This document shows, one piece after another, positions 12,089 to 50,932 of a DNA stretch of 50,932 bases; positions within the stretch are counted from its first letter, which is position 1; each line of letters begins with the position of its first letter. The position numbers and the translations under genes are program-made. Under the pieces are notes generated by a model. The model was not told where the DNA came from. It saw only the letters and a program-made list of their open reading frames with translations, and did not search any database. Origin of the DNA: Gammaproteobacteria bacterium. Lineage in GTDB: Bacteria > Pseudomonadota > Gammaproteobacteria > DSM-19610. The stretch lies in the NCBI GenBank assembly GCA_026197075.1, contig JAPHQV010000034.1, positions 1-50,932 on the forward strand. The letters are read 5' to 3'.

Positions 12089-12493
12089 ATGAGCAGCAAA
12101 GAAGATATCCGGGTTCGCGATGTCATGCACCACGGCTACTGCCTGGTCGATGGGCTTACCACGGTAGCGGATGCCATCAAGCTGATGCACCAGGAAAACG
12201 CCCATGCCCTGATCATCAACAAACGCGACGAGCACGATGAATACGGCCTGGTTCTGGTGTCCGACATCGCCAAGAAGGTCATGGCGCCTAACCGCGCGCC
12301 GGATCGGGTCAATGTCTACGAGATCATGTCCAAGCCCGTGCTAGGCGTGAAGCCGGAGATGCAACTGCGTTTCTGTGCCCGCATGTTCCACCAGTTCGGT
12401 CTGACCATCGCACCGGTCATCGATGCCAGCGGGGAGATCCTGGGCCTGGTCAACTACGATGACCTGGTATTGCGCGGTCTGGCCGCCGACTGA
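12089..12493 (+). CDS. CBS-pair domain protein
   Basis: 134 aa holding two tandem CBS motifs: RVRDVMHHGYCLVDGLTTVADAIKLM (about 8-33) and VYEIMSKPVLGVKPEMQLRFCARMF (about 75-99), each followed by a beta strand ending in LVLVSD or LGLVNYDDL. Such stand-alone Bateman modules bind adenosyl nucleotides and often sense energy charge or ionic strength for a partner transporter. Start ATG 12089 after GGGAGG, 14 bp behind the PII-like gene. Last gene of the cassette; it converges with nnrS across 8 bp. Confidence 0.88.
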   Translation: MSSKEDIRVRDVMHHGYCLVDGLTTVADAIKLMHQENAHALIINKRDEHDEYGLVLVSDIAKKVMAPNRAPDRVNVYEIMSKPVLGVKPEMQLRFCARMFHQFGLTIAPVIDASGEILGLVNYDDLVLRGLAAD

Positions 12494-12501
12494 CAGGTTT
12501 C

Positions 12502-13737
12502 CTATCCCGCGCGCCCGTCCACCCGCGGCGTCCAGTAGATCACGCCATATCGAGCTGCCCAGGGGAGCAGGCATAACAGCCAGACGCCGGCCGCCAGCAG
12601 GTTGGTGGACAGGCCGGCTACCAGGCCCAGGCCGGGCAGCTCCGCCAGGATGCGCAACAGCGCCGCCAGGTTCACACCGGCAAACAGCCAGGCCGTGAAG
12701 ACGTCCAGCCGCAGTTCGCGGCCCGAGTGGCCCAGGGTCACCCGCGTGGCCATGGCGATGGTCATGCCGGTGACGAAGCCGATGCCCAGGGCATGCAGGG
12801 GCGCCTGCCCCAGCGGTATGGACAGTGACAGCAACCGGGCCAGGTCCTGCAGCACGAACAGGGCCATGCCGATGGGCAGCCACAGGAAGGCGATGTGCAG
12901 CACCGCCAGCAGCGGCACCGCGAAGCTGCGCACCAGCCCCCAGCGCAGGCTCAGCCAGGCGCTGCCCAGCAACAGCGGGAGGTCGGCGAGCAGCAGCCAG
13001 GCCTCGGCCCCCAGGGCCGAGAGCAGCAGACGCAGGAAGGCGGCCGCCACCAGCAACTGCAGCAGGGGAAATGGCTGCACCCGTCGATAGGATTCCAGCA
13101 CGCAGTCACTGAAGAAGGGCAGCATGCGGTGCGCCACCGTCAGCAGCAGCGGGACCAGGAAGCCCCACAGGCCGATCTGCATGGCCAGCGCATAAGCCAT
13201 TGCGTTGTGCAGAACCAGCCCCACTCCATAGACCAGCATGCCGAGAGCCGCCATTCCCAGGTACAGGTTGAGCAGGGTCTCGTAACGCTTGTCCGCCGCC
13301 GGCGCCTCACGGTACACCCTCCACAGGGCGCGCAGTCCCAGCAGCCAGCCGGTCAGCAGCATGGCCACTCCCACTGCCATGAGCAGTCGATCCAGGAACA
13401 AACCCAGGTATAACACGGGCAGCGCCGCCAGCATCCACAGGAAGCTGCGTACGTAATCGGGTCGCGGCACCTCCCCGCCTCCCATCCAGCGCGGATAGGT
13501 GGTCATCAGGAAGCCGAAGATGAAGAAGGTAAACAGGGCATAGAGCATGAAAAAGCCATGCCCCCAGAGGCCCGGTACCTGCCAGGCGGGCGCGTTGAAG
13601 GCCGTGTAGCGCCCCAGCAGCTCCACGCCCCACAGCAGCAGGGTGAGTACCAGCTGCAAGGCGCCACCGAACATCATCATGCGGTGGGGTGCCGCCACGA
13701 AGACCTCGCGGCGACGATACGGTTCAGCGGGGTTCAA
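12502..13737 (-). CDS. nnrS: NnrS family heme-copper membrane protein
   Basis: About 411 aa with some twelve TM segments; NnrS features include AAPHRMMMFGGALQLVLTLL at the N-terminus, ALFTFFIFGFLMTTYPRWMGG, and HALGIGFVTGMTIAMATRVTLGHSGREL. NnrS proteins accompany denitrification genes and protect against NO-related stress (for example by preventing dinitrosyl-iron complexes in Vibrio). The most likely start is TTG at 13737, which overlaps the nirN stop (TTGA) and follows an AAGGA, implying translational coupling; the open frame reaches 13869. Last gene of the nir operon. Confidence 0.88.
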   Translation of the reverse strand: MNPAEPYRRREVFVAAPHRMMMFGGALQLVLTLLLWGVELLGRYTAFNAPAWQVPGLWGHGFFMLYALFTFFIFGFLMTTYPRWMGGGEVPRPDYVRSFLWMLAALPVLYLGLFLDRLLMAVGVAMLLTGWLLGLRALWRVYREAPAADKRYETLLNLYLGMAALGMLVYGVGLVLHNAMAYALAMQIGLWGFLVPLLLTVAHRMLPFFSDCVLESYRRVQPFPLLQLLVAAAFLRLLLSALGAEAWLLLADLPLLLGSAWLSLRWGLVRSFAVPLLAVLHIAFLWLPIGMALFVLQDLARLLSLSIPLGQAPLHALGIGFVTGMTIAMATRVTLGHSGRELRLDVFTAWLFAGVNLAALLRILAELPGLGLVAGLSTNLLAAGVWLLCLLPWAARYGVIYWTPRVDGRAG

Positions 13738-15458
13738 TGGCTGGTTCCTTCCGAATAGCGGGTCTTGTTCCAGACGTTGTACTTGCCAGAGGGCTTGCGC
13801 ATGGGCAGGCGCTTGACCTCTTCCAGGGTCTTCGCGTCGAACACCATCAGCGCCCCGTCCATCTCCCACAGGCTGACCAGGGCATGGCTGCCATCGCGGG
13901 TGAATTCCACGTGGGCCGCGGTCCTGCCCGGCTCGGGACGCAGGGTCTTGATGATCTCCAGGCTGCGCTTGTCGATCACGTGCATGGCGTCCTTGTGGGG
14001 GCCGAAGAAGACATCCACCCAGGCATAGGGTGAGTTTTCGTGGCTGCGCATGAAAAAGCCCGGTCCCAGGGTCTCGATGCGCCTGATGGTCTTCCAGGTC
14101 GTGAGGTCGATGACACTCACCTCACTCTTCTTCAGGTGGGGCGTGGCCAGCACCCGTCGGCCCTCATACTCGAAGGTGATGCCGGATCCGAGATGCGGCA
14201 TACCATCCAGGTCCAGGTCATCCACCTTGCGCCCGGCATCCAGGTCCACCACCTGGCCGTTTTTGGCATTGCGCGCCGCGCCCATCAGGTGGCGGTATTC
14301 CGGATCGAAGAAAAAATCATCCAGGTAGTCGTCAAGGCGGATGCGCCGCAGGCTGAATTCGGGTGTACCGGAATCCGTGGCTTGCGGGTACTGGATCTCC
14401 CACACCTCGGTCAGATCCTTGAGGGCGGCAATGAAACTGTTGCGTGGCGGCGCGGTATAGACGGCGCTCACCCGTGAACTGTTACCCTCCTCGTCACGCA
14501 CCGGGATCACCTGCAGGGGATCGAGGTTACGCCCATCCAGAATCACCAGGCTGTGGGGCAGGTAGTTGCCCACCAGCACGTAGCGCCCGTCGGGTGAAAC
14601 CGCCAAGTTGCGGGTATTGATGCCGGCACGGATCTCCGCCACCGTCTTCAGGTTGTAGATGTCGAACTTGCTGATCCAGCCGTCACGCGAGGCGAAATAG
14701 ACGTAGCGTCCGTCGGCGGAATACTTGGGCCCGCCGTGCAGGGCAAAACGGGTGGCAAAGCGATGAATCGGCTCGAACCGATCACCGTCCAGCAGGGTGG
14801 CATGGTTGTCACCCAGCTCCACCACGATGAACAGGTTCATCATATCTGCTTCGAATGCAGGCTTGTCCGGCAGGGAACCCGCAGGGTGAGGGACCAGCTG
14901 GCTGGCGCGCATGTCCTCCAGGGTCCAGTCGGGCATCTCCTCCGGCGCCGTGAAGGCCAGATCTGCCAGCAGGGTGATCTCCTCTGCTGAGAGCTGCTGC
15001 GCGAAACCCGGCATCTGGGTGGCCGGCCGCCCCTCGGCGATCACCTGCCGGGCCTCCTCCATCTTCAGGCGCCCCAGGTTCCCCGGCAACAGCGCCGGCC
15101 CCATGCCCCCCAGCCGCTCGGCGCCATGGCATTCGGCACAGTGCTGTGTATAGAGCTGCTTCACATCAGGCGCGGCGCTGGTGGATTGAACCGCCAATAG
15201 ACCAAGAATGCCAAGAAAACCCTTGAACCGCCAAGGCACCAAAAAAAGCGTTGAACCGCCAAGGTGCCAAGGACGCCAAGAAAAGCATTGAACCGCCAAG
15301 GCGCCAAGGACGCCAAGAAAATCTCTTGAATTTAAAATATTGGCGTCCTTGGCGCCTTGGCGGTTGATCCTGGTCTTTCTTGGCGCTCTTGGCGCCTTGG
15401 CGGTTGATCCTGGTCTTTCTTGGCGCTCTTGGCGCCTTGGCGGTTCAAAAAAATCCAT
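13734..15458 (-). CDS. nirN: NirN-like cytochrome c/d1 protein with a repeat-derived N-terminus
   Basis: 574-codon frame. From about residue 95 it is a NirN: heme c site CAECH (107-111) with GMGPALLPGNLGRLK, then a d1-type eight-bladed propeller ending FDAKTLEEVKRLPMRKPSGKYNVWN. It keeps one histidine equivalent to the NirS catalytic pair (GMPHLG) but not the other, as expected of a d1-handling, non-reductase homolog; NirN acts in periplasmic d1 maturation or transfer. The first 90 codons run through the 15186-15445 repeat array. The ATG at 15458 lies right behind the nirJ stop; a GTG at 15239 would instead give a normal signal peptide (VPWRFKGFLGILGLLAVQ then STSA-APD). The true start is unresolved. 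Confidence 0.88.
   Translation of the reverse strand: MDFFEPPRRQERQERPGSTAKAPRAPRKTRINRQGAKDANILNSRDFLGVLGALAVQCFSWRPWHLGGSTLFLVPWRFKGFLGILGLLAVQSTSAAPDVKQLYTQHCAECHGAERLGGMGPALLPGNLGRLKMEEARQVIAEGRPATQMPGFAQQLSAEEITLLADLAFTAPEEMPDWTLEDMRASQLVPHPAGSLPDKPAFEADMMNLFIVVELGDNHATLLDGDRFEPIHRFATRFALHGGPKYSADGRYVYFASRDGWISKFDIYNLKTVAEIRAGINTRNLAVSPDGRYVLVGNYLPHSLVILDGRNLDPLQVIPVRDEEGNSSRVSAVYTAPPRNSFIAALKDLTEVWEIQYPQATDSGTPEFSLRRIRLDDYLDDFFFDPEYRHLMGAARNAKNGQVVDLDAGRKVDDLDLDGMPHLGSGITFEYEGRRVLATPHLKKSEVSVIDLTTWKTIRRIETLGPGFFMRSHENSPYAWVDVFFGPHKDAMHVIDKRSLEIIKTLRPEPGRTAAHVEFTRDGSHALVSLWEMDGALMVFDAKTLEEVKRLPMRKPSGKYNVWNKTRYSEGTSH
15186..15445. repeat. Direct and inverted repeat array (ACCGCCAAGGCGCCAAG family)
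   Basis: Four direct units start TTGAACCGCC at 15186, 15223, 15251 and 15288 and continue as AAGGCGCCAAGGACGCCAAG with variation. After a short AT-rich centre the same sequence occurs inverted at 15340-15365, followed by two perfect tandem 40-bp copies (15364-15403 and 15404-15443). Segment 15291-15316 is a perfect 26-bp inverted match to 15340-15365 with a 23-nt loop, so the transcript can form a very strong hairpin. The whole array stays open in the nirN frame. GCCAAG-type repeats of this kind are scattered in several proteobacterial genomes; that is from memory. Confidence 0.92.
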
Positions 15459-16718: not shown

Positions 16719-16834
16719 GGATTCCGCGGCATCCCAGCCCGGTTGGCGGGTGTCGGCCGCATGGACGCGGCCGTCAAGCCTACAGGGATGTATTCACGGC
16801 GTCCCGTCAAACGGGCTGGGATGCCGCGGAATCC
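16719..16834. repeat. Dispersed element with 23-bp inverted arms, copy 1
   Basis: Perfect 23-bp inverted repeats at 16719-16741 and 16812-16834 (GGATTCCGCGGCATCCCAGC... and its complement). Between them is a core with its own 7-bp hairpin CGGCCGC / GCGGCCG (16754-16773) followed by TACAGGGATGTATTCAC (16781-16797). The core recurs in inverted orientation at the window end (50881-50932). It fills the nirH-nirJ gap and would lie in the nirJ leader. Confidence 0.85.
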
Positions 16835-50823: not shown

Positions 50824-50880
50824 GGTGTTGTTCCTGTCAGGGCCTGGCTATCGGTGGCAGGCAGTCCGGCATCCTGTGCC

Positions 50881-50932
50881 GGGACTCGCTGTGAATACAT
50901 CCCTGTACGCTCGACGGCCGCGTCCATGCGGC
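50881..50932 (-). repeat. Dispersed element, copy 2 (truncated by window end)
   Basis: Read on the minus strand it gives GCCGCATGGACGCGGCC, then GTCGAGCG and TACAGGGATGTATTCAC, then AGCGAGTCCC, matching the core of the element at 16755-16806 with few changes. Adjacent bases 50855-50880 (minus GCACAGGATGCCGGACTGCC) take the place of the right arm. The left arm would lie beyond base 50932. Confidence 0.85.

Follow-up and report, generated by a model that had tools for sequence, protein, structure and literature searches.

The window analysed here, 50,932 nucleotides long, is one whole contig (C54; JAPHQV010000034.1) of the gammaproteobacterial assembly GCA_026197075.1; in what follows, G000 denotes this genome, G001 a genome of the same genus, C a contig and L a locus. 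It holds two copies of a palindromic element sharing an exact 16-nt motif, ACAGGGATGTATTCAC, found at 16,782–16,797 on the forward strand and at 50,891–50,906 on the reverse strand; within three mismatches, the motif occurs three times in the window, against 0.19 times in window shuffles. Copy 1, on the forward strand, comprises a left arm (16,719–16,750), a first inner hairpin (16,754–16,773) in which the stem CGGCCGC/GCGGCCG closes an ATGGAC loop of the ANGGAN type, a second inner hairpin (16,781–16,792) with a TAC/GTA stem and an AGGGAT loop, and a right arm (16,803–16,834). The arms pair perfectly over 23 bp (16,719–16,741 with 16,812–16,834) or, alternatively, over 32 nt at 94% complementarity, and the copy folds far better than 200 shuffles of it (z −10.4 as DNA, −9.2 as RNA). 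Copy 2, on the reverse strand, consists of one 30-bp arm (50,856–50,885) and a core (50,886–50,932) that breaks off within hairpin 1, where the contig ends. The original prediction had described the 23-bp perfect arms and the shared motif, both of which were recovered, and had anticipated a complementary arm just past base 50,932. This arm lies on contig C1 (L001), whose start repeats the last 52 bases of C54 and then runs into the complementary sequence, so that the joined arms of copy 2 read GGCAGGCAGTCCGGCATCCTGTGCCGGGAC and its reverse complement over 30 bp. The adjacency of the two contigs is backed by synteny, both flanks lying close together on one contig of G001.

Throughout the whole of G000, 50 places lie within one mismatch of the motif, against none for the reversed control, and at least four further diverged copies (on C39, C46, C19 and C22) were read individually. 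Fourteen of the 50 stand no more than 60 bases from the end of a contig, as expected since repeats break assembly. The motif was present in 10 of the 56 genomes searched (the window's own and its relatives), and 191 distinct copies were collected, comprising 50 from G000, 15 from G001, 7 from other genomes and 119 from the stretches matched in named genomes. The scan of named genomes matched at least 114 stretches, with hosts named from 80 titles among the matches listed; these include Marinobacter, Microbulbifer, Pectobacterium, Saccharospirillum, Rheinheimera, Sedimenticola and Candidatus Tenderia. Where the listed titles give a class or a lower rank, the groups are to the best of present knowledge all gammaproteobacterial; a few titles give only Proteobacteria. 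One shared site is filled in three genomes of two genera (L026 in G000, L065 in G009 and L068 in G004) by copies with different arms, and such sites are therefore either old or reused.

Long complementary arms are the rule for the element. Of the 162 copies with enough flank on both sides, which come from the genus, its family and named Gammaproteobacteria, 140 form 15 or more arm pairs and 117 form 20 or more, whereas matching the left arm of one copy with the right arm of another gave 15 or more pairs in 1.4% of 483 control trials; copies with unpaired arms are thus the exception. The 22 weak-arm copies include seven long variants of G000 and G001 with an insertion in hairpin 1 (L001, L031, L037, L039, L044, L053 and L063), five of which carry perfect arms of 17–30 bp further out. 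In 29 copies sharing one register, each of the 26 arm pairs changes on both sides in some copy, and the covariation score is 0.889, against 0.207 when shuffled and at most 0.185 with slid partners. The proportion of paired cells in this set, 96.8%, is inflated because the copies were preselected from those with at least 18 arm pairs, and the fair number is 140 of 162. Within the core, six of the seven stem pairs of hairpin 1 show both-sided changes around a fixed loop. A conserved core with arms that vary together, as first proposed, is thus well borne out. The companion claim, that arms are unrelated between copies, stands in so far as they do vary, but conservation fades outward from the core (the commonest pair is held by 27 of the 29 copies near the core and by 9–10 at many outer positions), and some genomes have subfamilies that share arms.

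The RU-2 repeat of Yersinia corresponds to the YPAL element of De Gregorio (2006). Aligned locally with the window core, the Yersinia pestis RU-2 given in PMC2759123 scores 53, against at most 28 in 1,000 shuffles, and it folds on the same plan, with two inner hairpins, of loops AAGGAT and ATGGAT, on a long stem. From this core match and common fold, we conclude that the element very probably belongs, or is closely related, to the YPAL kind of miniature mobile elements. As given in the cited portions of the literature, YPAL/RU-2, a Yersinia palindromic sequence of 167–168 bp, shares with it the core, hairpin 1 (with its AAGGAT loop in RU-2), TACATGGATGTATTTACGGCGTC and the inner arms, and resembles it further in intergenic position and high copy number and, for some copies only, in outer TGACAAA/TTTGTCA arms. 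The long stem with two inner hairpins is found here, hairpin 2 being closed in about half of the predicted ensemble, as is the mobile, intergenic and many-copy character (50 places and two filled/empty pairs). The outer TGACAAA...TTTGTCA arms are present in G001 at L055, L061 and L091–L093, in part in G000 at L019 and L045, and absent from the window copies, so that the element can extend past the ends originally drawn for it in some copies. It differs from YPAL/RU-2 in arms that vary between copies, in the stem of hairpin 1 and in hosts well beyond Yersinia and Erwinia. REP/BIME and ERIC sequences are likewise intergenic palindromes but differ in sequence, and covarying arms around a fixed core are not described for them in the portions of the literature cited. 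Further background is given in parts of PMC2267715, PMC2847712, PMC9029176 and PMC10969869.

Scanned against Rfam with gathering cut-offs, the window gave only a tRNA; at E-values up to 10, the window copy gave 13 weak matches, among them Ysr224 and RsmW. Ysr224 (RF02770), a Yersinia family, matches a Pectobacterium copy (L115:638–745) at 73.3 bits, above its cut-off, and L115 is the only one to match that family among the 16 stretches scanned from the at least 114 named ones; the window copy reaches 21.8 bits against a cut-off of 70. The family thus covers a copy of the element, but it models the opposite strand.

Which strand folds can be read from the mispairs in the arms, since a transition in either arm would produce G·U or A·C with equal likelihood if only double-stranded DNA mattered. 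Read on the strand that carries the GGA loops, the 131 copies whose arms form 15 or more pairs without a gap contain 90 G·U and 27 A·C mispairs (p = 4e-9), an excess seen in most arm zones and in three gene contexts (17:4 in sense copies, 26:12 in antisense copies and 19:4 between convergent genes). By gene calls made with a simple longest-ORF rule, the GGA strand is sense to its neighbours in 30 cases and antisense in 32, and lies between convergent genes in 37 and divergent genes in 19. The lack of a preferred direction relative to tandem genes indicates that the element does not act simply as a leader or tail signal of mRNA, and the persistence of the G·U bias whatever the gene direction that the folding belongs to the element and not to the host mRNA. 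We therefore consider it probable that the GGA strand folds as a single strand, either RNA or single-stranded DNA, bearing in mind that the G·U excess could come from single-stranded DNA or be mimicked by cytosine deamination confined to one strand during a single-stranded DNA stage. The same counts bear on a role in cis, in which the hairpin would protect upstream transcripts from RNases or expose them, as proposed for YPAL and ERIC. The suggestion in PMC2229807 that YPAL might affect how long upstream transcripts persist favours such a role, as does the surplus of convergent over divergent sites; the near-equal sense and antisense counts, and a G·U bias that persists where the GGA strand is antisense, render it very improbable. 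Counting G·U against A·C gave a clear answer here and provides a simple test of the strand on which the folding of a repeat is constrained. The strand modelled by Ysr224 is opposite to the one marked by the G·U bias, and its annotation may deserve a check.

The origin of the arms was approached through filled and empty sites. Between mutL and miaA, G001 carries the element and G000 a clean empty site without a palindrome; the inner arms of the G001 copy arrived with the element, and the outer part of its left arm repeats in inverted form the right flank, which G000 has a single time. At the same site, G008 has the element with 33-bp arms, and 14 other readable family genomes (L233 being unreadable) are short and without it. 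The copy-2 site is empty in G001 and lacks any palindrome like the arms. As neither empty site had the palindrome, the bulk of the arm sequence is brought by the element; no clear direct duplication was seen at the two sites, where one inverted flank copy was read, duplications of 3–26 bp being reported for YPAL in the cited part of PMC2229807. These sites bear on the proposal that the core inserts into the loops of pre-existing palindromes, such as terminators, whose halves then become its arms. Some arms are indeed terminator-like (L004), and the target sites of YPAL are reported to include or border on dyad symmetry (PMC2229807). The proposal is nevertheless extremely improbable and is disfavoured by the two empty sites: at mutL-miaA, G000 holds one half of the outer arm only, among the 14 short sites just one (L220) has a palindrome of its own, of 8 bp, and arms in general have a consensus near the core.

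A second proposal dispenses with selection altogether and has the arms paired by mutation, through fold-back template switching (quasi-palindrome correction). The inverted flank in the mutL-miaA copy speaks for it, and at L052 in G001 the arms reach a length of about 100 bp and enter neighbouring coding sequence, an extent that could be an assembly fault because G001 is a draft of 290 contigs. Of 149 positions in five orthologous pairs, moreover, 27 have changed on both arms and 14 on one, a surplus that also fits the original view of arms varying together. Mutation alone, however, predicts similar numbers of G·U and A·C mispairs, against the 90 and 27 found, and leaves aside the retention of the hairpin-1 loop while its stem changes, and as a complete explanation it is improbable. 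The claim of selection for arm pairing accordingly holds in part: the core is kept and the arms covary, but template switching appears also to contribute, as indicated by the outer arm copied from the flank and the arms extending into a gene, and selection is not the sole cause.

Other comparisons between G000 and G001 concern the state of individual sites. The core lies in opposite orientation in the two genomes at L015/L059, L034/L054, L003/L063 and L088/L056, and also at L016/L062, where a run of N adjoins the BLAST coordinates on which the call is based. At C20 (L071), C54 (L073), C1 (L072) and L091, the sites are too divergent or carry other palindromes, and an empty state is unreadable. 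At two G001 loci, L086 (G001:C282, about 1681–1944) and L087 (G001:C194, about 12480–12560), a different palindrome, GTAGGAGCGGCCTCTGGCCGCGAAC with its complement, stands where G000 has the element, and at one of them it is nested inside arms of the CGCAAAGGCGCAAAG type. We take these palindromes to be REP-like, and intergenic sites seem to trade palindromes.

Both inner hairpins present ANGGAN-type loops, and so display the ANGGA in paired hairpin loops expected of CsrA/RsmA-binding RNA. PMC7652899 reports RUACARGGAUGU as the CsrA SELEX consensus and the ANGGAN hexaloop as the site contacted by RsmE, a homologue of CsrA. Hairpin 2 (TAC-AGGGAT-GTA) matches this consensus in full in copy 2 and in all but the first letter, which is C, in copy 1; in the predicted RNA ensemble its closure averages only 0.48 when the arms are included and 0.36 when they are left out. 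In the hairpin-1 zone, CA(N)GGANG occurs in 151 of 172 copies, against 2.3% when shuffled, a statistic independent of the search because the search was anchored on hairpin 2; seven long variants of G000 and G001 lack this loop motif. G000 has one csrA gene. Two Rfam families, TwoAYGGAY (RF01731) and Bacillaceae-1 (RF01690), likewise have two CsrA-binding hairpin motif matches each and are predicted CsrA binders (PMC4333381, part cited); they fall outside the 13 matches of the window copy and are not described as mobile repeats in the cited part of that paper. RNAs of the CsrB/RsmY/RsmZ class also bear GGA-in-loop hairpins in pairs or more, as here, according to the same part of PMC4333381, but they are sRNAs with numerous CsrA sites, in contrast to a dispersed mobile repeat with two sites in its usual copy. 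A literature search returned no paper joining YPAL with CsrA and no match to the exact motif string. The kind of element is known, but its folding on one particular strand and its loops resembling CsrA sites seem not to have been described before.

Judged from these loops, binding of CsrA by the element is plausible, if somewhat short of an even chance, and it is the likeness of the loops to CsrA sites that favours RNA over single-stranded DNA as the folded form. The best overall explanation, which we favour by a modest degree, is a mobile element of the YPAL/RU-2 kind whose GGA strand folds as RNA or single-stranded DNA with putative CsrA binding, this grading being a compromise over the chain formed by identity, GGA-strand folding and CsrA binding. 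In such a model, the GGA strand would act as a single strand, most likely RNA, folding into a three-way junction in which the long arms would bring the two ANGGAN loops close, offering a possible docking site for a CsrA/RsmA dimer. Arm pairing would be kept by selection on the fold, helped by template switching from an arm or flank; the scattered intergenic copies could serve as dispersed candidate CsrA-binding sites, and RNA made from the element might in turn be shielded by CsrA.

The main competing account is that of a single-stranded DNA element, in which the folded GGA strand is cut and moved by a hairpin-reading transposase and the likeness to CsrA sites arises by chance. Strand asymmetry independent of gene direction fits the processing of one DNA strand, the element also folds strongly as DNA, and Y1 (HUH) transposases are encoded in 15 of the 20 family genomes. 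The original prediction had called for a search for a linked transposase, and the Y1 search in the family genomes found none for the element: Y1_Tnp/RAYT presence showed no correlation with element presence across the 20 genomes, some of them incomplete, as the motif occurs without a Y1 match in G017 (7 motif places) and G019 (2), and Y1 matches occur without the motif in G002, G005, G006, G007, G010, G012, G015 and G018. The account also leaves the match to the CsrA consensus without explanation, and on balance we consider it unlikely.

Returning to the RNA reading, a more far-reaching form of it can be put forward tentatively, namely that YPAL-kind elements are selfish, mobile CsrA-binding RNAs across Gammaproteobacteria, each giving a folded transcript with a two-site CsrA dock. 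If so, every round of transposition would alter the amount of free CsrA or subject neighbouring genes to control by CsrA, and the folded RNA may itself be an intermediate of movement. Should the loops bind CsrA, a class of bacterial repeats hitherto regarded as passive would turn out to be mobile components of a global regulatory network, and the occurrence of fixed loops beside freely changing stems would be explained.

Several variants and neighbouring repeats were also observed. Larger versions of the element (L165, L203, L162 and L156) have extra GGA-loop hairpins inserted beside hairpin 1, as if further loop sites could be gained. At L088, L090, L094, L095 and L096, a longer hairpin (ACAGGGACAAGGTGAGACCGC...GCGGTCGAGAAGGTGCCCTG) takes the place of hairpin 2, with an insert that is similar across several copies of both G000 and G001. 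A separate dispersed repeat of about 170 bp, with ends AGGAGCCTGTCGGACTTGAG and CTCAAGTCCGACAGGCTCCT, lies at L071:5078–5251 (G000:C20:18077–18250) and has dozens of matches in G001. Finally, positions 15,216–15,455 of the window (L073:216–455) contain short dispersed repeats, QGAKDAK/RRQERQER-like in ORFs, with many matches in G001.
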